From NCBI RefSeq assembly GCF_000003605.2, contig NW_003155738.1, positions 657,807 through 696,015 on the forward strand: 38,209 nucleotides of DNA, given 5' to 3'. The stretch's first letter is position 1. Each line of letters begins with the position of its first letter. Below the pieces are notes generated by a model. The model worked only from the letters and a program-made list of their open reading frames with translations. It made no database searches and had not been told where the DNA came from. Both the position numbers and the translations under genes were made by a program. Source of the DNA: Saccoglossus kowalevskii (taxonomy: Eukaryota; Hemichordata; Enteropneusta; Harrimaniidae). Below are positions 10,561 to 38,209 of this stretch, piece by piece.

Positions 10561-11171
10561 TAACCGATCATTACGTTAACGGTATACGGCGTATTCTTGT
10601 GTTCTTCCACGTGTCCTTACTAGGTTTAGATTGACAACTGTTACACATGTCACAACAGTTGAACAATGACAAGATGGAAATTTTACATGACGACTTATGT
10701 GATTAGGCTGTAACATTTAACGCATTTTAGCTGCCGCGTATCTTGTTTATTCCAGATACCTAAATCATAACACCAGTGCATTGCCTTGCCCATGTCTGCG
10801 AAATTACGTTTTCTTATTTATTTAACTTACATTATTACAAAAATAAACACAATTGATTACAGCTTGCCGACCCTCTAAGCTCATATAAAGTCTGCCCCTG
10901 GACACAATGAGGTTTCACCCATTTCTCAGAGAATAAACATTTCAAAAACAAGAGCGTTGTAAAGCTTCCCGTTTTCTTGTCGGTGGTCAAATACAAATTG
11001 AATGTGGTATCGAAGCCAAGACGTTCGGAGAAGGCAGTGATCACCGCACGAACAGAGACTGAAGCAGTTATGAGAGTGTCTCTGATTTTTCCTTTGAAAT
11101 GCTCTCAAAAATTCTCTTCGCTCTTGGTCATCAAACTTAGAAAAACTTCCCGCTGTCTCGGCAAATGACGG
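10561..11171. other. unassigned sequence between the repeat array and the BEL remnant
   Basis: A hairpin-forming pair caactgtt/aacagttg lies at about 10635-10662. Overlapping minus-strand frames of 69 and 121 codons occupy 10835-11291; the longer one overlaps the BEL pol remnant antisense at its start, and neither resembles a family I know. Composition is GC-richer than the flanks, so this may belong to another insertion. Confidence 0.3.
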
Positions 11172-11726
11172 GACTTTGAATCCCGACAACAATGTCGCTG
11201 GCTCGCTAATAACGATCAAATTACCTACAATAAGAAAGAAGGTGCACGTATACAAGACAACTCGGTTATTACGAAACGAATAGTCGTACAAGAAACTTCA
11301 AGTTTATACGATCCGCTTGGATATTTAACGCCCGTTGTCGTGAAAGCGAAATTGTTCATACAAAAACTGTGGAAAAACAACATTGACTGGGATGACCCAT
11401 TAAGCGACGATATGCATTGGCAATGGAAAGATATATCAACTGTCTTAAGCGCCGTAACCAAGACAACAATAAAACGCATACTTTGATATGGAAATGCTAG
11501 AATTGTGTGATCCGTTGATATCAAAACTTCATCTGGACGTAAAAACCGCCCGCTGACAAAACTGTACCCATCAAATGTGTGTGCAAAGCCCGACAATGTG
11601 TCCACCGAAGACACCCAAGAATCACCCGCTGCTAAACGCGTACCAGATCCTAAAATTATTAATCACCGAGCCTCTACTAGAACTGCAGCCGCTATCGCTC
11701 GACTACGAATCCAGGACATTAATTGA
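11172..11726 (+). pseudogene. BEL/Pao retrotransposon pol remnant, internally deleted
   Basis: One reading frame, interrupted by TGA at 11484 and again at 11508-11510, encodes two separated parts of a BEL/Pao polyprotein. The first (VITKRIVVQETSSLYDPLGY, then LTPVVVKAKLFIQKLW and W-D-D-P-L) is the region just after the reverse transcriptase palm typical of Pao pol. The second (SVDIKTSSGRKNRPLTKLYP) matches the C-terminal DUF5641 domain that follows the integrase, and ends with an Arg/Ala-rich tail and a stop at 11724-11726. The RNase H and integrase regions that should lie between are missing, as are gag, protease and the RT core upstream. It is therefore a deletion derivative, not an active copy. 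The 3' LTR follows directly. Confidence 0.8.
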
Positions 11727-16344: not shown

Positions 16345-16587
16345 GTTAACTTAGGAGTGGTACATGAAAACCCAGGCAGTGGAAAAGATGTTGTTGCCAA
16401 CATGAAACATCTAAAGAAATACGTTCCAACTCGGCCCAATGTGATACTATGTAATGGGGATCAGTCCTCTGTTGAAAGGATGATAGAAGCCAGGATATCA
16501 ATGGCAGCTAGTGAAAATCCGGTTAATAGGTTTGCTTGGCTTGAACCCACACCACCACAATTTCACAGGCGTGGCATAGTATTGCAC
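16345..16587 (+). pseudogene. DUF6589-type protein, core exon (G-D-Q-x-S-V-E-R-M motif)
   Basis: This is the most diagnostic exon of the gene: 243 bp, phase 0 at both ends, flanked by ccttgtag| and CAC|GTAATG. It encodes VNLGVVHENPGSGKDVV, LKKYVPTRPNVILCNGDQ, SSVERMIEARISMA and WLEPTPPQFHRR. The pattern V-P......GDq.(s/t)VERm.eA...... L.P.P..FH is the hallmark of DUF6589, a domain found in large, lineage-expanded animal and fungal proteins of unknown biochemical function, commonly thought to be transposon-related. The Gly-Asp followed by Glu-Arg and the FHrr end are intact here. It should join an exon near 17043, but the phases do not match (0 versus 2), so a short exon may be missing or unrecognised. 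Confidence 0.65.
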
Positions 16588-17042
16588 GTAATGTGCTTAT
16601 ATAGTGTCATTTTATTTATAAATATATCAGTATTTATGTATATGTGAGTAGACTGTTTTCTTTTGAATAGAATTAAAACTCGAAAATGGTGTGCGAAATG
16701 GTGCCTCTCGATTGTTATTGTGATGTCGTCAGCATTTTTATTCTGAAAGAAAAATCAACAAATTAGACCTTATGAACTGTTATGTGTGATGCATCATTAT
16801 TTCAAACACTATAATGGTTATTCTGTAAATCAATATGTCAGAGTTCTGATTTGGGTTCTTGAATATTAAATTCATTTTTATCATACAATGCCTTTGAGGT
16901 AAAGAAAGAAAAACATGACGTGTAATTTTATTCACATTTGAACTCACTATTTTATTTTATTTGTTGTTGAGATACAATGATAGAAACCTGTACATTTCCA
17001 AAGATGCCGTAACATTATTCTTCTTTTGTAATTATTTTTTAG

Positions 17043-24408: not shown

Positions 24409-27400
24409 CTACGAAACATGAATGATAAAAAGGATAACTAGGTTAATATTCAGGTCAAATGCACAGATTCTAGTATTTGATCCATTAGAAGTCCATTTCC
24501 AAAAGAAAAATGTTTGGATGAGATTCTAAGTTCAACAACTTACAGATTTATTGTAATAAATTGTTAATGCGTTTTCCAAGAAAGTATATTTATTGTCAAG
24601 CAAATATAGTTAATGTTCACTCAAAGTACAAAAGTGCTATCATCTATTACATAGACTTAATTAAGCATGNNNNNNNNNNNNNNNNNNNNNNNNNNNNNNN
24701 NNNNNNNNNNNNNNNNNNNNNNNNNNNNNNNNNNNNNNNNNNNNNNNNNNNNNNNNNNNNNNNNNNNNNNNNNNNNNNNNNNNNNNNNNNNNNNNNNNNN
24801 NNNNNNNNNNNNNNNNNNNNNNNNNNNNNNNNNNNNNNNNNNNNNNNNNNNNNNNNNNNNNNNNNNNNNNNNNNNNNNNNNNNNNNNNNNNNTCCCAAAA
24901 AATAATTACATTAACTTTTGTGTCTATTTTGGAAACTCAAATGAACTGATGACCAAATTTCAGCAAAAACAACAACCATCTTATTTGTAAACCATTATTA
25001 CTTACTGCTGCCAAGTTTAAAGGATGTCAGACAAATGGGCAGAAAGATGGACTCATAACACAAGTCCCGTCTTCAAGCCGCATCTGAAAGGGAGCATCCA
25101 AGACTAAAACAACGTGACCTTGATTCAATATAAATATAATTACAACTTTGAAACAAATTTCCTACCATTTATAAAGCCTGACAATGATGATTGTATATTT
25201 CGTCCCATTGCTATTTCCAGTGGTAAAGTACCAGACAAGATAGCATCCGGTCCACAGTTACACATACCACATAACAACAGGCATGTGACTTGAAACATCC
25301 AGCCATAGTCACTTGTCAATAAAAATAATATAAATCCAATTGCACTTAGAATAATAGCTACCATAACACCCAATATAGTTTTACCAGCAAACCACCTGAG
25401 ATGATAACAAAAAGTATTACAACAATTGTTCTTATGCAATAGTACCATCGTTATCCTAGTTAGGTCTTACAAATACAGGATATAATGCTATTTTTATAAA
25501 TGTTATCTTTTATACAAATAATGTTATTCAGACAATAGGACTATTATAAATGTTATCTGTCATACAAATAATGTTATTCACACAATAGAATAGACTATTG
25601 TTGTAAATGTTGTTCGTCATACAAATGTTATTCACACAATAGGACTATTATATATGTTATCTGTCATACAAATAATGTTATTCACACAATAAGACTTATA
25701 AATGCTATCTGTCATTCAAATGTTATTCACACCATAGAATAGGACTATTGTTATAAATGTTGTTCGTCATACAAATAATGTTATTCACACAATAGAATAG
25801 GTCTATTGTTATAAATGTTGTTCGCCATACAAATAATGTTATTCACACAATAGAATAGGACTATTGTTATAAATGTTGTTCGTCATACAAATAATGTTAT
25901 TCACACAATAGAATAGGTCTATTGTTATAAATGTTATCTGTCGTACACATTATGTATATTATTCAAAACATTTATTCAGGACTATTGTTATACAGGACAG
26001 GTGACAAAAAAAGTTGTGTTGTGTTTTTACCTGTCTACAGTGTATCCTAAAACAATACTACCAGCTACACCACCAATTTCAAATGTTGTGGACAACATTC
26101 CAGCTTCAGATTTTCCATATCCAAGCTTTGAAACAAAACACAAAAAAATAAGCAAACAACAAAAAATAAATAAGTAATGTTCACAATCGATACAGATTTG
26201 AGTTAATACAACATACTCACAAATTGGTGAAGGTACATTGGTAACCACATGTACATACAATATCGGACAATCTTAACACAAAACATAGTTATTGAAATCT
26301 CTGCCAACATTCTGCAAGAAACGACAATAAGTAGTGTGTGAGTGTATGACAATGAATGACATTTTACTTAGGCGTAATGATTGCCTATGCCAAGTCTACT
26401 AGATTTTTACTGTAAGATTGTTAATAAGTATTCAGCTATGAAACAAATCTCGATCTTTGCATCCAGAAATGTTTAAATATTGTATGTTTCATTCCTTTCC
26501 AAATGACACAAAACTGGTAATAGTATAACATTTGTCAAAATTACAAGATTTTACTGATAGATACAAAATTAACAACTACAAATTCAAAGCTTTCAGTTAC
26601 TGAGGATTGTTAATGGCCCTGTTTAATATGCACAAGTACATCGGATCTGAGTACATACATGCAGTTCATAATACAAAAAGGAAACAGGAAGTTGATTAGT
26701 GGTCTGGTTCCAATTGGTATGCAAGTGATTTTCGAATTTAATTTGCTGTTGGAATGTTTATTTTGTAACACATATTTCTTGCATATTTCCACCAAATATT
26801 TATTAAGAAAGCAAAAATATTGTTACAGTCAAACATGTATTAGCAAACACCCCTATATAAAGACCATCTGCCTATAGTGACCACTATTGGGCAGTCCCAA
26901 GGTATAATGTACAAGCAGCCTGTCTTATGTGACCACCTTTTTTGCAGATTTTCATTGGCTTAGAGCCAAAAAAAATAATTAGCATAATGTCAAATTTATG
27001 AACTGGTGATCCATACAAAATAATCCAACTTTCCTACAAGGCCAATTGTCTATAATAACCATTTTAATGATGTCCTCTGGGTGGTCACTATAAACAGGAT
27101 TGATTCTATAACCAATTCAATGTTATGTTAAGTAGTGAAAACATGTAAATCCCCATGGCAAAACTTGGAATTAAATTTTGTTTTCCAGAGACTAAATATT
27201 TTCCACGATTTTCTATTGTTAGTTTTGCAAGTCTTTTCATAATTTTAGACTAGAAAATTCTAATTAATATTCTGTTTTTAGTGTTGTATGGTTATCCAAT
27301 ATCATCCATTTAACGTCAAGGTGGTCACACCACGTTGTGTTAGATATGGGACCCACGCATGGGATTATAAATGTGCACTGCTTGATGACCGAGATGATTT

Positions 27401-30400
27401 TAGTGGTGTAACTAAATAGCTTAATTAATAGATTTATAATCACTTTAGTTGTACTCACGGAACTTTCCATATTTGCCAAAATGTTAATTGTTGTTGTGTA
27501 GAAGTGGATTCTGAAATATTTACTGAAAAAGAAAAAGTTACCAACGAAAATCAACAGAAAACTCTGGCTACAGTGTTGATCTCACAAGCAGAGGTAAGGA
27601 AGGGGGTCTTTTCCTCAAGAATATCTTGTTATTAACATTGAGTTCTAGCTTCAGCATTTTGTGTATAGTATTGTAGAAAGTCATACAATTTGAGTAATCT
27701 AATCATATTTGTGCACACAAAGCAAAAGAATATCGTTTCAAATATCGTGAGAATGTCAACCTTTCTCAAATTGTAAATCAACGCAACAACAGAACTTTTA
27801 AAAATAACCCTCACCATTTAATGTCAATGTCTACACTACTACATACATTATAATGATTTTAATATCACAGTTATGCAGTCAGTGACCTTTTGTTACACCA
27901 ATCATTACCTGTATCTACTTCGATGTGTGATTTATTTGGTTTCTTGAGCAACAAAGACACTAAGATCCCAAGAAATATCTGTAATGCAAAAAAATAATCC
28001 TGTCCAAATCCTGTCATTAATTGTACACTTAACACAGTAATAGCTGTATGAAACCTTGCTATTATATTCACAGTATACTTCAGTTCTGCAATGATTTTGA
28101 ATACAAATTTACTTCCATCATCTTTGATTAATTCAACTCTTGATGCTAAAATGCATAACTGTAATTCTCTTTTATATGGCTTGCTCACTGCACAACACAA
28201 TCTTTCACAAAAGAATTGCAATGTCCTCTCTATTAAACCTACACTGGCTTCCTATTACTTATAGATTAATTTAAAATTCTGTTATTCACATGCTCATAAT
28301 AAAGGGCTTCATCCTACAAAGAAATTCTAAGAAATCTGTATTTCTAGCAACAAACACTTAATTGCTATATGTACATCCAGATTTACATCTTAGGAAGATC
28401 ACTCATATGAACAACCAACTTATACTCTTTAGAATAAACTATCAAACGTCCAGGTCTCAATGTGAACATCTTTAATTTGAGGTGGTCATTGTACCATGCA
28501 TGCATGAGATATGGGTCTCATATGAACAAAGATGGCGACTTTGACTGTTGCGTAGACAAACGAGTACAAATTGAGACATTTCTAAGCTTTAATTCTTTAA
28601 TTTAATTCTTTAGGGGATTGGAAGATATCGAAGGAGTCACTGGCAGTAATTAGTGCAAGTCGCACCCAGGTCAGGACTCGTACTCATGATTTCATTAGAA
28701 GAGTGCATTGGCTTGTGGGAAAATCAATGTTTATCAGCACAAATATTGCACATGCCCGGTACGACAAACACTACCCTTTAAATCCAGACTCAAAACTGTC
28801 TTTTTCAACATGCAATTTGTAAATTGTGAGCACCACTGATGGTTAGCTTCATGCTCATTTTGTTTTAATCATGAACTAGCCTACTAGTAGCTGCATTCAC
28901 TGAAAGCATACAATAAACAAAACACATACATATGCACTCATGTCAAGTTCATGGATTACTCTGAGACTGTACATTTCAATTGCTGAGCAGTGAAAACCAT
29001 TATTTTCGACTGATAAAAGGTTTTAAAGGTGATTCATTTCATTTTAATTAGTTTTCTCCATCCACAAATCATCATGTTTTTTGTTTAATTACTCTGCTTT
29101 GATAGCTCAAGTTACACCAAGTAAAAAATTAATAACATAGAAAAGATGCAGTGATGGCTCAGAGACAATAAGCAGTCTCACAATTTGAAAGAACATTTAA
29201 TGAAAGAATTAAAGCATAGAAAAAACTCTGTTTGTTGAGAGCATTCAGAGGTACATGAATCAGTAATAGGGTGCATTTAAAATTGTTTCAAAACTTCAAA
29301 TTCAAAGAAGCAAGGTGAATTATATACTTCTGCAATTTGACCCTAAGTTTATATGAATATTAAAGCAAAAGAATAAATTTCTGGAAGCAAGTTAATTTAA
29401 ATCTGATAAATGTTTTTTGATATATCAAAAATCTGTCAATTTATGCAAATTTGGGTAATCAACGTACATATATTTCACCTCTAAACTTAATTCCATCATC
29501 TCAAAGAACCATTGAAATGGGAAGGTACTTGATATATCAGTGGAACAACTTAAAAATGCCTAAATTATGTAATTAGGATCATTTATGTAATAGAGTAATT
29601 AACATGCAGTTTCAAACATATACTAAAGCACCTATTTATCAAGTCTAATCAAATCTGATAAGTGGTTATTGATATATCTGTAGAGAAGGTAAACATAGAC
29701 TGATTCCCAATCAGTATACAGTGCAAACATAGGTTTTACCTCTTTCACATTATGCAAATTCATGCAAATTAGATAAATATTATCTACAGATTGCAACCTA
29801 AAATAATCATATCTGTGGATTATCCCAGGGAATCTATGTACCAAATGTCATTGAAATTTATTGCTTGGTTCTTGGAAACAAGTGAAATTGGCTAATTAAT
29901 ATGCAAATGAGATAACTAATATCCGCATATTGCAACCAAAAACTAATAAGGTCTCCATATAATCGCAGAGCATCTATGTGCTAAACGTCATTAAAGTACG
30001 TTTGATGGTTCTTGAGAAATGAAAAAATGATTGAAAATAGCTAATTTATATGCAAATTAGGTAATTAAATATGCAGAGATAGCAACCATAAACTAAACAA
30101 GAGGTGACAACTATATAATAGTTTCACCTTTGCAGTATTATACTAAAAAAATAAAGGACTATGTCTGCCCTCCAAGATCAAAGCGACTGCATCATTAGAA
30201 AGTTCCATGTATAATAAAGAAGCTTACCACTATGAAAGAGGGTAAAAGAAATGTGCTTCTCCATCCATACATACTCTGTAAATAAACCTGCAACATAAAA
30301 TATAGAGATTTTACTTATTTGAGTTATTTATATTTAATAATATCACATTTTCCATATTAGTTTATTGTGGTATATCATTACAATGCTTTATTATATCAAT

Positions 30401-33400
30401 TATGAACTCCCTACAGGGCTATATTAGACAAAAATAAATTGTGTCATTCTGAGAATATTAAATAAATTGGTAAGGTATGTCAAATGAAAAAAAAATTCTT
30501 TCATCATAAAACCTCTGTGCTAGCTTGATGGTTAGTCAATACAACATTTTCTCAATTTATTTAAAATCCTTTTTGAGTGATTTCACATCACTTTTTCATG
30601 ATTAGTCAAAACAAATTTAGGTTTTGCAATAAAATCTACAGAAAGGTTATTGGAATCACAAACATTTTTTAACTCGAACTAAAATAGATTTCAAGTGAGA
30701 TAGTGTGAGAGCTCAGACATGCACAATTAATCAAGCATAATGAAGAACTTTCATGTATGTATAATGTAATACCACAATGTATGGTATATTGTACTTACTG
30801 CTAATGATGTGCCCATAACTCCACCAGCAAAGACACATGTGTCCCATGCACCAAGTATGGTATATTGTACTTACTGCTAATGATGTGCCCATAACTCCAC
30901 CAGCAAAGACACATGTGTCCCATGCACCAAGTATGGTATATTGTACTTACTGCTAATGATGTGCCCATAACTCCACCAGCAAAGACACATGTGTCCCATG
31001 CACCAAGTATGGTATATTGTACTTACTGCTAATGATGTGCCCATAACTCCACCAGCAAAGACACATGTGTCCCATGCACTAAGTATGGTATATTGTACTT
31101 ACTGCTAATGATGTGCCCATAACTCCACCAGCAAAGACACATGTGTCCCATGCACTAAGTATGGTATATTGTACTTACTGCTAATGATGTGCCCATAACT
31201 CCACCAGCAAAGACACATGTGTCCCATGCACTAAGTATGGTATATTGTACTTACTGCTAATGATGTGCCCATAACTCCACCAGCAAAGACACATGTGTCC
31301 CATGCACTAAGTATGGTATATTGTACTTACTGCTAATGATGTGCCCATAACTCCACCAGCAAAGACACATGTGCCCCATGTACCAAGAATGGTATTCAAT
31401 TGTTGCCCACTAAACCACTCGCCCAATCCCTTGATACAGCTTGGCCAAATCTGGGACTGTAAGAATTAACAGAGAATTATCACAACAGTACTATCATGTA
31501 GATGTCAATTTCAGTACCACATTTGGATTAGCCAACAGACTGGATTGTGGTAAATGCAAATGCCAGGCTATGAGTTTTATATATTACTATATTATACTAC
31601 AGTCATATCAAATGAATAACACATTTAATATCTCAAGTTAGTTGTTTTCTAAAATTATCAAGAGCTCCCAGTTCTTTTTTTACAGCTGCACATAGCATTT
31701 GAATACCAATGCAGCATATTAGTCATCAAATGTGCTAGTAAGCTAGCAATGTTTCTTTCATACAAGCATCCTGCACCTGCTTTTAAAAATTGGAATACCA
31801 ATACATGACTTTTTCTATTACATGCAACGTGGAAGATACCATTATTGTAAGGTGTAAACTATGTACAGACTTTTGAAAATTGTTTATAACAAGCCATGCA
31901 AGGCACATTCCCTGTTAGTCATTAAATTTTAAGTAGTTTTGTTTATAGTAATATAGAAGCTGATGCTAAATGATCGTCAAGTCATCTTGTATCTGATCAT
32001 CAAACGAGTACTTGTCCATATTGAGATATTGCTCTGGAACAGCAATAATTAAAACAAAATGGCTACCAGTTGGACATTTTGAATACATCTGTATATCTCT
32101 GTTGTATAATGATTGAACAAAATTTGAACATAATCAGTCAAAGCATGTCAGAGGCATGGCTCTAGAACTGCATTAAAATAAAATGGCCGCCAGTCAGCCA
32201 TTTTGAATCAGATCTGAAAAACAAAATGATGTGCATCAAGGACCAGTCTAATGTGTGTACCAAGTTTGAATGAAATCCATCCATATATAGATGTACTCAA
32301 CCTCATCAGAACTACTTGTCTGAAGCTTGGCTTGTCATTGCTAACTGAGTAGCAAATGTGCTTACTAACATGCTGCATTGGTGTTTCAATGTTACATGTG
32401 ACAGTAGTAATCCCATAGGCAATATTTTGATAAACTGCAGACTCTACAGAGTACATATGTTTTATAGAACAGATAAATGTTAATCCAATAAGATACAATT
32501 ATGGTATACTGCCCACCATACAGAAATGCACTTGTCCTATAGAAAAGATGTACAATATTATGGTACACTGTAAGCTCCACAGAAGAAAATTTTCATTCAA
32601 TAGAACTGTTAATACAAATCCTATACATGTAAGGCAAGATTACAATTAAGGATAATTCACTCACCTGAGCTGCTCCATTGCAAAATAATAAAAAAGCAAA
32701 CACAGGATAACTTGACCACATCCCAAAAGTGACCTAAAAATTAAAATGTCACACAAAAATCATCACAATATATACCATAAAACATGTTAATTTAATTTGG
32801 GTTCATCACGGAAATTAACAACCAAATTGTGATACAGAAATTGGCTCTATAAATGCTTATGGCGATGTGACAATTACTGTAATTTATTTTTGCTGTAGTT
32901 AATTTTCACTGAAAAGACTGTTTGAGTGTTCTGTATGGAATTTATTTTCACTGATTTTTGTTGAGATGAATATATTATACAAAAGGTATATACTTACAAA
33001 AGTTATATATACATAAAGAAAGGTATGTATGCTGGATTAAATTTTTCACTAAATCATCCCTTCAGCGAAAATAGCAGAAATAACAGTAACAGTGGTCCTG
33101 TTATGTTACATTTCATATGCAAAGGCAGCTAGAGGGTGTCACACTGCATTGTATTTTACATACTTTGTGTGTTGTTTAGGAACAATATCAAACATGATGT
33201 GTCTTGTCAATCACCTCCCTTAACCTTTTTACCACCATTACCAAACTCACAAAATAGTCCCATGTATAGTCTGCACTTTCCCTCATTAGATTGGGACAAA
33301 AATAACCAAATTTTTGGAGCAAAAACTGATAAATGACTCAAATTTTGTCAGTTGGCTCCAAAATTAGGGTTCATTTTCAGAAATATTGAAGAATATAAGA

Positions 33401-36400
33401 AAAAATGCAAACAAATTAGGGTGAGAAAGTCTGTTTAGACTGTTATGAAAAAGTTTAATTTTTAATTTAATTGAAAACTATTCCTTCTTATTTGTGTAAA
33501 CCAATAAAGCTATCGGTATATATAAAGCAACCATTGTCCACAAAATATTGTATACAAACAACAAGCCAGCATTTCCCTACAATTACTCTAGAGATCAAAT
33601 GAGATGTGTACTTACCATAGAAATACTTGATATTATTAAACAGCTCGATAAAACTTTCCTGGCACCAAACCTATCACCAAATGATCCTAAAAATAACTGT
33701 CAAACAAGTCATTGTAAATGAGATAGGCCTCACCAATTATTTAGTGTCTTTGTATGTCATAATAATGACTCACTAATTACTATGTGGCCTTGGATATAAT
33801 AACTAAATTCAAGTGGGAAAAATGAGTATTTGAATGGTTATTATCTTTTGAAGGAAACTATAACAGTTCACACTAGCAGCAGTGGGTGTGGTGTACTCAA
33901 TTTTTGGGAGAGAAATATGAACACATTCAACACATGTATATTGGATCCACTCGTTCACACACAAAAAATAAAATACAGCTCACCTACCTTATGTCATCAT
34001 ATCAAGCTTAAAATTGGCCAAGTCAAGTCCAAGAATGTACTTAAAAATTAACTCATTGCAAAAAAAGTCATATATAAAGATTGTATACCTTCATTTAAAA
34101 TACAAAACTGGCTAACAATTATAATGCAAACTAGCACAAGTTTTCACCAAAACAATCAGATTACACATACTACCATGTTGTGCCCGGTATCAAGTCTATA
34201 AATTTCATCCACAAGTGCTAAAAATTGGCTCTATATCATGCAAATTAGGTCATTCATATGCACATGTGGAATATTGCACTCATATACCAAATCTCCTGGA
34301 AATATTTATGAAAACAGACAGTGGACTGATACACTGACACATTTTTGCTTAGATAATTTGGAGATAAACACAATAAAGACAAAACCGCATAAAAAACTCA
34401 GCTTGTTTTTCGCATGCACCATTCATCAAACTAATAACATTTTTTGTACTACAGCAGTGGTTTTAATTTATGACAGTCAACTTAATCAGCTGTCTATCAA
34501 AATTGAGGATAAAATGAGTTCTTTTATTTGTAAGAAATTTCATATCATGTAAATACATGTAATTTATTTTCTAGTCATCTGTATATTGCAGAGTCACAAA
34601 ATTTTGTTGACTTGATTATACGACTTTGCAAGCTTTTTGTACTATCCTCATTGTGTACTGAATGTTAAAGACCATAAGCATACTGTAAATGCATTAATTA
34701 TTTTTAATTTCATGTTAAATAACAATAGAACTCATTGTTTCTCAAAATAGTGAAATTTTTAAATGCCAGTGAAAATATATTGTTTCATGGTATCCATGTA
34801 GAATTCTGTTGTTTGTTATAAAGTGAGTGAAAAAAGTAGTTTCAGTGCATGATGAAGATCATATAACAGCTGAATGAAAACTTATATCTCTCAGGGAATT
34901 TCTCACTGCGGATATACATATTGTGCATGTGACAATGAATGATATCATATTCGTAGTAAGAAAACACATGTCAACATGCAAAGCACAAATTAGGAAGTAT
35001 AAAAGTTCTCATTCATAATCATTGTGTCTCAATCATAAAATGAACAAAGTACATATATTATTTGTGTTCCACCTCAAAACTTCACACATGTGAGGATAAT
35101 TTATCTCATCGTCCTGCGCAGAGTGAACAGTTTTATTGCTTCAACAATTTTGCATATGCAAAAAGCATATGATGTTACAGTACTTGTGTGACTAGCTTGA
35201 GTCACATGAGTTGCGCTCTCAGAGGTGCTCCAAACCCAACACACGCCTGACATAACGATGTAGTTTTTCACTTCCCCCGGCGATTTTTTTTGTCCATACC
35301 AATCAAATTGCAGGAATGTCGGATAGTGACGGCCATCAAAGAGTAACCATTCATGGCAGAGTTTATTTGTTTGTTGGCATAATGTGTGATAAGATGCTGG
35401 CAAATTTCCGCCCAATGTTTATCATCTTGTTGCAAATAGTCTGTGATTATTGCTGACAATGCAAACACAACTTTGTGTAACTATGACCACCAAAATGAAT
35501 ATTCATTGAAACTAATTACAAAAGGCTAGACATTTGCGAATTCGCAGTATTGATCTTGTCGACGAGACTTACACTATTCTGTCAGGTGTTAGTGAGGTCT
35601 GATGCTGTTCGGCCGGCGAAGGTGCAACTCACACATGTCAGGCTACTGAGTCATCTGACGAATGGATTGAGTCAGCCATCTTGATAAACCAAAGTGATGT
35701 GCATCAACATCCAGTTATGATTATTCCATTCAACAAGTTTGAATCAATCAACACCCAAGATCCGGTGGACATGTCAAAATTGCTCAAAGTATATACAATG
35801 CTAGTCGGCCATCTTGGGTTGAATTTACAAAATCGAAGGCATGCGTCCGAGGGATGTGCATCAACTACTTTTAATGGTCAATCCTTCCACCAAGTTTGAA
35901 GTAGAACAGCCTACACTTGCTTAGAAACTGGTTCAGGACATGTCAGAATACCTGATTTTAGTGTGTTTTCACAACAAAAATGACCACCAGTCGGCCATTC
36001 TTGACACAACCTTAAAATCATCGCACTTGCATACAGTATGTATCAAACTTGATGAGAATCTGTCAAGGTGTGTCTGAGATATAGCTTTGGACAGATGCAT
36101 ACACAGAGAATAATCCAAATGGGGACTAAAAAACGTTAATAACGTTGGAAAGTGCTTAATTGATCTCTAAGAAAATAACTCCACACGTTGATTGTGTTTT
36201 GGATATACCAGTGTGACCAATGTAATGTACAAAGCTGACATTACAAAATGTTTTGATGATAATTTACCTTGATCGATTTTCTACCTTCACAAAATGTTGT
36301 CTGTTTAATTATTCATTGTTCCAAAAAATGAATGCCAATACAATATTTGCTTTATAGAAGTGTATTTCTAATAGAAGTACATGTAATCCTAACAGTTGAA

Positions 36401-36637
36401 TGTATTGTTTACTGGAACATTAAAATATGACTTCTTATATGCACATAGACAAACCTCTGTTATTTATTTAAGCAAACTAAAAAAAAACTTAATAAACAAA
36501 GTTCTCAGAAGTTTCATAAAATTAAAAATGTTCAAGCATTATACCTGTATAGCTGCATACGGTAAGAGTAATGACGTATCCAACCATCCTAACTGAGTCT
36601 TGCTTAAACCGAGTTCTGATTCCAAGTCTGCCTTAAT
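24218..36637 (-). CDS. SLC37/OPA-type sugar-phosphate exchanger, 11 exons, 5' end missing
   Basis: Eleven exons join in phase, with GT-AG at every junction, to give 385 residues and a stop. The protein is a 12-TM major facilitator of the SLC37 (organophosphate:phosphate antiporter) family, which in animals exchanges hexose- or glycerol-phosphate for phosphate, usually at the ER membrane. Seen: the MFS signature GSFGDRFGARK after TM2 (residues 35-45), N-G-A-A-Q-S-Q-I-W-P in TM4, a YGW segment before TM6, a short charged loop, then IVRYCMYMWLPMYL (TM7), STTFEIGGVAGSIVLGY (TM8 loop) and GFGTIGTILQGPIIG near TM11. Visible exons: 36637-36545, 33696-33616, 32733-32665, 31456-31331, 30287-30228, 27978-27909, 27510-27459, 26311-26221, 26125-26031, 25395-25166, 24408-24218. 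The family is ~430-530 aa, so about 40-60 N-terminal residues (TM1) are not seen. The central loop is much shorter than in human SLC37A3. I cannot say which SLC37 member is nearest. Confidence 0.85.
24670..24892. other. assembly gap, 223 N
   Basis: Lies in the last intron of the SLC37-like gene. Apparent reading frames across it are artefacts. Confidence 0.99.
25166..25395 (-). CDS. SLC37-like, visible exon 10 (TM9-TM11)
   Basis: Acceptor catctcag| (25397/25396), donor AATG|GTAGGA; 230 bp. Begins with the last base of Arg, then WFAGKTILGVMV, two hydrophobic helices, CNCGPDAILSGTLPLEIAMG and SSLSGFIN. GPdA...........lg corresponds to the GPyaLittavsaDLG region of other SLC37 proteins. Confidence 0.85.
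25490..25960. repeat. ~58-bp intronic minisatellite
   Basis: About eight copies of ggactattgttataaatgt, then tgttcgtcatacaaataatg and ttattcacacaatagaata, with several shortened copies at the left. It lies in the intron between visible exons 9 and 10 of the SLC37-like gene. Confidence 0.9.
26031..26125 (-). CDS. SLC37-like, visible exon 9 (TM8)
   Basis: Acceptor gtttcaaag| (26127/26126), donor GACAG|GTAAAA; 95 bp. Encodes LGYGKSEAGMLSTTFEIGG and VAGSIVLGYTVDR. 'e.a..lst.fdiGGi.Ggi..G..sDr' is the family pattern after TM7. Confidence 0.85.
26221..26311 (-). CDS. SLC37-like, visible exon 8 (TM7)
   Basis: Acceptor tttcttgcag| (26313/26312), donor CAATTT|GTGAGT; 91 bp. Encodes MLAEISITMFCVKIVRYCMY and MWLPMYLHQF. 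K-(L/I)-V-x-Y-x-x-x-x-W-L-P-x-Y-L is the strongest SLC37 signature in the gene. Confidence 0.85.
26840..27095. mobile_element. possible MITE with TATAGTGACCAC ends
   Basis: tatagtgaccac at 26873-26884 has an exact inverted copy, gtggtcactata, at 27081-27092. Similar weaker phrases (ctatataaagacca; cttatgtgaccacc) occur around and between them. Short non-coding elements rich in 'ctata..gacca' motifs are common in marine invertebrate introns. No target duplication identified. Confidence 0.4.
27459..27510 (-). CDS. SLC37-like, visible exon 7 (loop, W-x-x-W-K-V-P)
   Basis: Acceptor aaatatttcag| (27512/27511), donor GTTCC|GTGAGT; 52 bp, two split codons around 16 whole ones. Encodes STSTQQQLTFWQIWKV with Pro completed by the next exon. 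It matches the SLC37 region just before TM7 (f..a...pgv). Too short to show up as an open frame by itself. Confidence 0.8.
27909..27978 (-). CDS. SLC37-like, visible exon 6 (TM6 and loop start)
   Basis: Acceptor gcattacag|, donor GATACAG|GTAATG; 70 bp, 23 codons plus one base. Encodes IFLGILVSLLLKKPNKSHIE and VDT: the end of TM6 and the first part of the cytosolic loop. The longer open frame that covers it (27871-28221) runs through intron sequence. Confidence 0.8.
28230..30227. other. intron between SLC37-like visible exons 5 and 6
   Basis: Contains the ATGCAAAT-type repeat described separately, and a gatatgggtctcatatga segment near 28510 that resembles gatatgggacccacgc near 27344, so a second dispersed repeat may be present. 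No exon recognised between 28.0 and 30.2 kb, and the phase of the flanking exons does not require one. Confidence 0.4.
29430..30090. repeat. ~140-bp degenerate tandem repeat with ATGCAAAT motifs, 3-4 copies
   Basis: Copies share (t)atgcaaat(t/g)ag, 'attgcaacc(t/a)aaa', 'gggaatctatgta/gagcatctatgtg' and 'ggttcttg'. The phrase gcaacc recurs at about 29797, 29933 and 30080. A related single fragment occurs near 34240 (catgcaaattaggtcattca). Confidence 0.7.
30228..30287 (-). CDS. SLC37-like, visible exon 5 (TM5-TM6)
   Basis: Acceptor tttatgttgcag| (30289/30288), donor ATAGTG|GTAAGC; 60 bp, residues 124-143: VYLQSMYGWRSTFLLPSFIV. An AG twelve bases inside would drop VYLQ but keep the frame. YGW before the next helix is a family feature. 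Confidence 0.85.
30781..31388 (-). repeat. 76-bp minisatellite made from an exon end and its splice donor, 8 copies
   Basis: Units start at 30781, 30857, 30933, 31009, 31085, 31161, 31237 and 31313, each exactly 76 bp and almost identical. On the gene strand each unit holds 58 bp of coding sequence (residues up to GVMGTSLA), the donor GCA|GTAAGT and 18 bp of intron. The copy at 31313-31388 is continuous with the real exon and carries its private variants (gtgcccc, tgtacca). The others fall into two subtypes, gcacca (copies 1-3) and gcacta (copies 4-7). None of the extra copies has an acceptor. The intron therefore contains seven extra consensus donors. Confidence 0.95.
31331..31456 (-). CDS. 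SLC37-like, visible exon 4 (TM4-TM5), source of the 76-bp repeat
   Basis: Acceptor gaattcttacag| (31458/31457), donor TTAGCA|GTAAGT (31330/31329); 126 bp, residues 82-123. Encodes SQIWPSCIKGLGEWFSGQQ, then TWGTCVFAGGVMGTSLA. The last 58 bp, the donor and the next 18 bp of intron form the unit repeated downstream in the gene. The first donor met by transcription is assumed to be the one used. Confidence 0.85.
32030..32300. repeat. dispersed GGCC-palindrome repeat, intronic copies
   Basis: aaaatggctaccagttggac (about 32057) and aaaatggccgccagtcagcc (about 32181) with flanking gatctgaaaaacaaaatgat and accaagtttgaatgaaatcc match the 12.5-13.7 kb array. Lies in the intron between visible exons 3 and 4. 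Confidence 0.75.
32665..32733 (-). CDS. SLC37-like, visible exon 3 (TM3-TM4)
   Basis: Acceptor aatttttag|, donor GCTCAG|GTGAGT; 69 bp, residues 59-81. Ends in FCNGAAQ, which runs into SQIWP of the next exon; human SLC37A3 has N-G-L-L-Q-S-T-G-W-P here. Confidence 0.85.
33616..33696 (-). CDS. SLC37-like, visible exon 2 (MFS motif A)
   Basis: Acceptor tttgacag| (33698/33697), donor TCTATG|GTAAGT; 81 bp, residues 32-58. LFLGSFGDRFGARKVLSSCL holds the TM2-TM3 signature G-x-x-x-D-R-x-G-x-R-K. An alternative AG ten bases inside (ttttttag|gatc) would break the phase with exon 1, so the longer form is chosen. Confidence 0.85.
33750..36540. other. large intron between SLC37-like visible exons 1 and 2
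   Basis: No exon needed by phase and none recognised. Open frames of 66-104 codons (for example 34238-34552 and the pair at 35101-35468) do not resemble any family. It contains the repeat fragments at 35.6-36.1 kb. Confidence 0.45.
35640..36120. repeat. dispersed GGCC-palindrome repeat, 2-3 degenerate units
   Basis: gagtcagccatcttgat (35669), gtcggccatcttgggttgaa (35805) and atgaccaccagtcggccat (35979), each followed by gatgtgcatcaa-type or aagtttga-type segments seen in the 12.5-13.7 kb array. Units are about 150 bp apart. Confidence 0.7.
36545..36637 (-). CDS. SLC37-like, visible exon 1 (TM2)
   Basis: Acceptor gtttcag|, donor ATACAG|GTATAA; 93 bp, phase 0 at both ends. Encodes residues 1-31: KADLESELGLSKTQLGWLDT and then SLLLPYAAIQ. 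'Gls...lG.ldt.fl..Ya' is the SLC37 pattern from the TM1-TM2 loop into TM2. An upstream phase-0 exon with TM1 is needed. Confidence 0.85.
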
Positions 36638-37944: not shown

Positions 37945-38209
37945 TATTCATCAGTGCAATGTAAGCCTTCCCATTGCTCATTCCTGTGTAGATGTGCTTA
38001 CCATATTTCGTCTATTAGTAGTGCAATGTAAGCCTTCCCATTGCTCATTCCTGTGTGGATGTGCTTGCCATAGTTTCTCTATTAGTAGTGCATGTAAGCC
38101 TTCCCATTGCTCATTCCTGTGTGAATGTGCTTACCATAGTTTCTCTATTAGTAGTGCATGTAAGCTTTCCCATTGCTCATTTCTGTGTAGATGTGCTTGC
38201 CATATTTCC
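37945..38209. repeat. 66-67-bp minisatellite at the right edge, at least 4 copies
   Basis: gtaagccttcccattgctca recurs at 37961, 38028, 38094 and (with one change) 38160, and the array continues past the window. On the minus strand each unit contains ctatggtaagcac or atatggtaagcac (copies with gcaagcac lack it), a good match to a splice donor. Confidence 0.9.

Follow-up and report, generated by a model that had tools for sequence, protein, structure and literature searches.

The window analysed here (the whole stretch of DNA, 38,209 nucleotides) contains a gene in which the end of one exon, together with its splice donor, is repeated in tandem within the following intron. The locus raises the question of how a gene fares with eight consecutive donors at one exon, and whether such an array is a splicing device or a repeat that splicing puts up with.

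The host gene

The host gene lies on the minus strand. Five consecutive exons, all in phase 0 (exons A to E, Table 1), give an open stretch of 143 aa that matches MFS_1 (E 2.8e-28) and, among solved structures, SLC37A4 (E 2.5e-16) and SLC37A2 (E 1e-11). An approximate peptide for the second half of the gene again matches MFS_1 (E 6e-15). Judged by these matches, the predicted product is an SLC37-type transporter. The alignment of the 143-aa stretch to SLC37A4 is gap-free over query residues 5-139 and so passes uninterrupted across exons D and E, indicating that donor 1 joined to exon E yields the expected protein.

The intron just before exon D holds a 59-nt inverted repeat (31693-31751 and 32336-32394, 80% complementary, 584 nt between the arms), possibly a small mobile element. 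Another intron of the gene contains a second minisatellite of about 50-58 bp in about 8 copies (25494-25935), which lies off the exons.

Table 1. Features of the array and its host gene in the window, and homology-backed exon-end arrays elsewhere in the genome
Feature	Position in window	Strand	Period x copies	Evidence or remark
76-bp minisatellite, 8 units	30781..31388	-		TRF, unit table, shuffle control
Founder unit, joined to exon	31313-31388	-		Unit table; seven copies follow
Units 2-5, identical, TAG-type (CTTAG), exon-near block	31009..31312	-		Unit table
Units 6-8, identical, TGG-type (CTTGG), block beyond	30781..31008	-		Unit table
ATACCAT, exon-side copy of breakpoint microhomology, in exon D	31389..31395	-		Sequence, unit table
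ATACCAT, intron-side copy, end of unit 8	30781..30787	-		Sequence, unit table
Donor 1, GTAAGT	31325..31330	-		G(+1) 31330; sole donor joining exon E in frame without a stop
Donors 2-8, GTAAGT	30793..31254	-		G(+1) 31254, 31178, 31102, 31026, 30950, 30874, 30798
In-frame TAG hit on read-through past donor 1, any later donor	31307..31309	-		Unit table, sequence
Exon A, phase 0	36545..36637	-		Exon model
Exon B, phase 0	33616..33696	-		Exon model
Exon C, phase 0	32665..32733	-		Exon model
Exon D, 126 nt, phase 0, end ...GVMGTSLA	31331..31456	-		Exon model; family from profile and structure matches
Exon E (VYLQSMYGWRSTFLLPSFIV), phase 0	30228..30287	-		Exon model
USP5/13 UBA exon array			80 bp x 9.9	UBA_7 E 5.4e-23; PDB USP5 E 1.7e-25
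MBOAT7-like exon array			85 bp x 13.3	PDB E 2.3e-12; sub-threshold Pfam match, E 9.4e-5
Vps8 exon array				Match E 1.6e-17
HSP70-type exon array				Match E 2.5e-4, just under cut-off
Dynein heavy chain exon array				Match E 0.0015, under cut-off

Anatomy of the array

The 76-bp repeat is confirmed: TRF reports period 76 over 30779-31395 (8.1 copies, 99% match, score 1185), against a top score of 72 in 20 dinucleotide shuffles of the window. Each unit is composed of 58 bp of exon end and 18 bp of intron, the latter beginning with GTAAGT. Taking unit 2 as the reference, units 3-5 are identical to it, units 6-8 differ at one base, a G that they have in common with the founder, and the founder differs at four. 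At 3 of its 76 bases the founder differs from every copy. One of these three is the breakpoint base, where the copies have the intron-side A after ATACCAT and the exon has T; because the copies carry the intron-side base, this apparent private variant marks the junction and is no mutation. Beyond it, founder and copies are separated by two substitutions, the polarity of which needs a relative.

The unit table bears out the first-pass annotation in its central observation, an exon end and donor tandemly amplified within their own gene, and in the near-identity of the copies. Its eight 76-bp units are present but not exact, being a founder, four TAG-type and three TGG-type copies, and its lengths of 58 and 18 bp are right, but the donor lies within the 18 intronic bases and is not additional to them. 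The exon-joined unit is indeed the founder, but the argument from private variants is weak, and its status follows instead from joining the intact exon: in seven other arrays compared, the exon-joined unit was more divergent than every copy in only two (L027 and L035).

The array is seen at one locus and as one allele in the assembly, and no second haplotype or paralogue was matched in the genome assembly. The assembly is a gapped draft, with, for example, a long N run beside the window, and the exact unit number of 8 is less secure than the array itself. A search with the exact unit pattern and a protein-level search, both in the same collections of viral contigs and genome contigs, returned no relatives, and Rfam and tRNA searches of the window gave zero matches.

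Origin of the array

The unit starts in the exon at the junction of AATACCAT and TCTTGG, and past the last unit the intron continues at the junction of ATATACCAT and ACATTG. The breakpoint microhomology is 7 bp, ATACCAT, and slippage or unequal exchange probably took place at this common word. A tandem duplication between its two occurrences, one 58 bp into the exon and one just within the intron, would by either route have doubled the exon end and its donor; the breakpoint itself is observed directly. The duplicate would then have grown to the seven intronic copies, presumably by block duplication; the two blocks of identical units are plain in the unit table.

We also considered, and rejected, the idea that founder and copies came to differ through quasi-palindrome correction. 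On paper the altered bases would close a 12-nt palindrome and make a donor hairpin more stable, but random transition triples fold at least as stably in 107 of 400 cases for RNA, 59 of 400 for the top DNA strand and 88 of 400 for the bottom strand.

Donors and the consequences of donor choice

The eight minus-strand GTAAGT words are spaced 76 nt apart. Donors 2-8 would add between 76 and 532 nt to the message, and in each case, as also on intron retention, translation would meet the same in-frame TAG 21 nt beyond donor 1, giving a protein that ends in ...GTSLAVSTIYHT. Were a TGG-type unit to lie next to the exon, the donor 2 product would be open but out-of-frame. Since every later donor meets the same TAG, the earlier claim that any slip past donor 1 truncates the message holds, and the accompanying frame arithmetic for donors 2, 3 and 4, although correct, is moot. 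The description of each copy as a consensus donor needs qualifying: positions +1 to +6 are consensus, but position -1 is A instead of G. Because of this A, the array donor has the weakest U1 duplex energy (-7.0 kcal/mol) of the five modelled gene donors (the others range from -7.2 to -13.0). In U1 pairing the eight donors rank best among the 83 GT sites of exon D and the intron.

Predicted 6-nt accessibility is 0.026 for donor 1 in the array, against 0.036 in a single-copy form, 0.056-0.067 for donors 2-4, about 0.3 for donors 5-7 and 0.09 for donor 8. Donor masking by RNA structure was rejected, as these accessibilities give donor 1 no advantage and, if anything, the opposite. The 721-nt array RNA is more stable than 20 shuffles (z -4.1); tandem repeats often fold more stably than shuffles.

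Among competing donors, SRSF1 can favour the intron-proximal and hnRNP A1 the intron-distal site (PMC5585400). Since such factors can steer the choice, it is a genuine prediction that donor 1 is preferred. One reason for such a preference may be exon size: the exon is 126 nt long with donor 1, but from 202 nt (donor 2) up to 658 nt (donor 8) with the later ones.

Recurrence of donor arrays in the genome

The array belongs to a class that recurs across the genome. We searched all 4830 contigs (572,110,611 bp) for three successive CAGGTAAG words, at spacings of 38-68 and 69-99 nt. Among the matches listed, at least 16 contigs are represented in the 38-68 nt scan and at least 18 in the 69-99 nt scan, with a union of at least 24. 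Of these 24 listed arrays we inspected 14, chosen by eye and partly for coding-looking units, which makes the sample non-random; the ten contigs left out are 131, 808, 998, 1685, 1919, 1938, 2797, 2921, 3119 and 3517.

Nine of the 14 inspected arrays start where an open exon ends, each with an AG acceptor upstream. Homology backs five of the nine (USP5, MBOAT7, VPS8, HSP70 and dynein; Table 1), with no match to solved structures for the Vps8-like and dynein-like exons, and the other four rest on an open frame plus acceptor (L030, L032, L035 and L037). A weak match to Prominin (E 0.014) was obtained for L030; L032, which by eye we take to resemble a glucose transporter, finds no Pfam support as one. 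One further case, L034, is a plausible exon-end array with a short exon, and at L028, L029, L033 and L036 the stretch is taken up by array or gap, which hides any exon context. The natural arrays hold 3 to 12 exact donor copies within the inspected stretches.

In the USP5- and MBOAT7-like genes, the product of splicing donor 1 to the following exon lines up with the known protein, with zero insertion. Read-through was followed in 11 arrays (that of the window, the nine clear cases and L034). An in-frame stop lies ahead of the next exact donor in nine, and in the other two (L026 and L032) use of donor 2 would shift the frame by an extra 80 or 52 nt; at L038 a variant donor 40 nt on precedes the stop, and its use would shift the frame. 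No second donor gives an in-frame product in any of the 11 arrays examined. By our estimate about one in-frame case would be expected by chance, so this absence is no sign of selection.

At L039 (contig C669) a pyrimidine-AG tract is directly followed by GTAAG (TCTTTACAGGTAAG), and its copies look like zero-length-exon (recursive) splice sites as well as exon ends. On contig C3119 a large satellite of 67-bp units, each containing TCTCAGGTAAGATGG, accounts for many tandem donor words among the matches listed in the 38-68 nt scan.

Targeting of donors or chance

Raw triple counts favour the donor word over its reversed control: 2272 against 241 at 38-68 nt (about nine-fold) and 2259 against 211 at 69-99 nt (about eleven-fold), counts that are inflated in that one large array gives many overlapping matches, and with more than 2000 places of each scan outside the matches listed. 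Triples of plain GTAAGT at 62-92 nt spacing numbered 11450, fewer than the 29928 of their reversed-word control. As single words, donor and reversed word occur 10484 and 6670 times, a ratio of 1.57. In the 38-68 nt scan, over the contigs up to C3119 that the listings of both words cover, distinct contigs number 16 for the donor word and 7 for the reversed word. Raw counts thus exceed the control, but in distinct arrays the donor word is not clearly ahead of it.

Minisatellites are in any case common here. Arrays cover 8.5% of the DNA within the span of the SLC37-like gene, so that it is no surprise to find one array on about twenty exon edges. Across the 127,047 readable bases of the window plus 20 stretches near it, 16 arrays of period 25 or more, one of them counted twice where stretches overlap, make up 4.4%. 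We read these data as minisatellite birth that does not spare exon ends, rather than one that seeks them, with raw counts that leave room for targeting. Ordinary intronic minisatellites abound in the window; the 76-bp array, unlike them, includes 58 bp of coding exon and a donor.

Other features of the window

A 34-bp minisatellite of 34 copies occupies 373-1522, and a 69-bp array at 2472-2644 repeats a donor-like CAAGGTAAG on the minus strand, with no upstream exon identified. A 66-bp array of 3.9 copies at 37953-38208 contains GTAAGC, enters the long N run just past the window and may be coding. Several 21-bp repeats (AAAGTTGTGCAAAGTGATTG-like) between 5972 and 9966, often about 850 bp apart, suggest a larger tandem duplication. 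A BEL/Pao retrotransposon remnant lies at 11169-11486 (Pao peptidase A17, E 1.6e-20), and a match to DUF6589 at 16345-16647 stays below threshold (E 7.6e-6; 25.3 bits, cut-off 27).

Discussion

By its anatomy the array belongs with the amphioxus 'mirage' minisatellites of Adh3, the globins BflGb6 and BflGb9 and troponin C, with a similar array in PGBD5; troponin C and PGBD5 are the additional cases of a later account (PMC3902484). The unit of the present array crosses a real exon-intron boundary, with 58 bp from exon D and 18 bp from the intron, and the first authentic site leaves the frame intact, as the phase-0 joins and the SLC37A4 alignment indicate. It differs from the amphioxus arrays in repeating a donor only, in its SLC37-type gene and in recurring at many genes of one genome. 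The amphioxus arrays are reported to leave regular splicing undisturbed (PMC3087553, PMC3902484). Length variation between haplotypes or somatically is a further trait of the class; for the present array the assembly holds a single allele. The mirage class is already described; what is new here is its recurrence across the genes of one genome. A literature search covering few subscription papers found no description, outside amphioxus, of mirages that form a genome-wide class.

In human IFI6 (6-16/G1P3), according to a paper by Turri, a minisatellite reportedly provides multiple splice donors, and in this the two loci are alike. Two downstream repeat units of the IFI6 minisatellite are used and yield isoforms (PMC4526556). 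The present 76-bp unit contrasts with this: each of donors 2-8 meets the same premature in-frame TAG, and alternative functional isoforms from downstream donors are not predicted.

We think it likely that the array is a near-neutral mirage minisatellite of a recurrent class, with donor 1 productive and the copies serving as decoys. Donor 1 is in phase with exon E, and through its presumed use the gene would keep working, with donors 2-8 sitting in the intron as decoys. A message made now and then from a later donor would terminate 7 codons beyond the usual end of the exon and probably be broken down, and the array would be selectively near-neutral. Overall the repeat looks like a recurrent DNA-repeat accident tolerated by splicing, not a switch built for the SLC37-like gene. 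Two precedents are points against this reading: SRSF1 favours intron-proximal sites among competing donors (PMC5585400), and human IFI6 does use downstream repeat donors (PMC4526556).

The IFI6 precedent, together with the early TAG common to every later donor, is also what speaks for a graded splicing switch or NMD buffer, in which donor number sets the truncated fraction and so tunes transporter level. We regard this as unlikely. The same anatomy is found at unrelated genes, the stops and frame shifts on slipping (11 of 11 arrays) are what a random intron gives, with about one open in-frame case expected by our estimate, and the near-identity of the seven copies suggests youth rather than long selection. 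Still less credence, next to none, goes to a U1 sponge, whereby intronic donors bind U1 snRNP and either shield the message from premature polyadenylation or titrate U1. The array does offer eight good U1 sites, and its own intron has three AATAAA and one ATTAAA downstream, but these poly(A)-like words lie at least 200 nt downstream of the array in AT-rich DNA and may be chance words, and the other four donors modelled in the gene are all stronger than that of the array. The switch or buffer and the sequestration of U1 had both been proposed in the first-pass annotation. They find no support here: the sequence offers nothing for either, like arrays stand at unrelated conserved genes, and amphioxus arrays are reported to leave regular splicing intact.

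Expansion of one or two real units by the assembler is very unlikely. A draft with long N runs invites the suspicion, but two contiguous copy types and a distinct founder are unlike a simple assembler loop, and such arrays have been verified in amphioxus (PMC3087553, PMC3902484). Intron gain in progress, with repeat units recruited as new exons or introns, was proposed for the amphioxus globin mirages (PMC3087553), and the TAG-type units do place an AG 24 nt past the preceding donor. The pyrimidine tracts of the array AGs (0.47-0.59) are, however, weaker than that of the authentic acceptor (0.71), and a one-unit exon from AG to donor would be 52 nt and frame-shifting, and we give this reading only a very slim probability.

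The mitochondrial code bears on the lineage of the host. On the mitochondrial contig (17,037 bp), the COX1 frame includes seven in-frame TGA codons and lacks AGA and AGG; its single AAA stands at a Lys position. Nine COX1 ATA codons fall in the part aligned to the best-matching solved COX1, opposite Ile in five cases, Met in one and Leu or Val in three. In mitochondria of cephalochordates, molluscs, annelids, arthropods and vertebrates ATA encodes Met. ATA read as Ile argues against all of these groups and is compatible with hemichordates, echinoderm-like groups or non-bilaterians, so that the host is probably not an amphioxus. That mirages were first described in cephalochordates is a matter of history and has no bearing on their mechanism.

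We therefore advance, tentatively and as something short of an expectation, the broader proposal that in a lineage outside the cephalochordates exon ends became donor minisatellites at many conserved genes, under a near-strict rule that the first donor wins, with about a dozen identical downstream donors tolerated. The choice among equal donors is an old question that has mostly been addressed with built constructs. If the proposal is true, this genome would be a natural genome-wide experiment on 5' splice-site choice, in which decoy number differs between genes and perhaps between individuals. Natural arrays in conserved genes of one genome would make the donor rule readable directly from RNA-seq. 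They also extend an amphioxus curiosity to what is probably another lineage, and are material for testing intron gain via tandem duplication.
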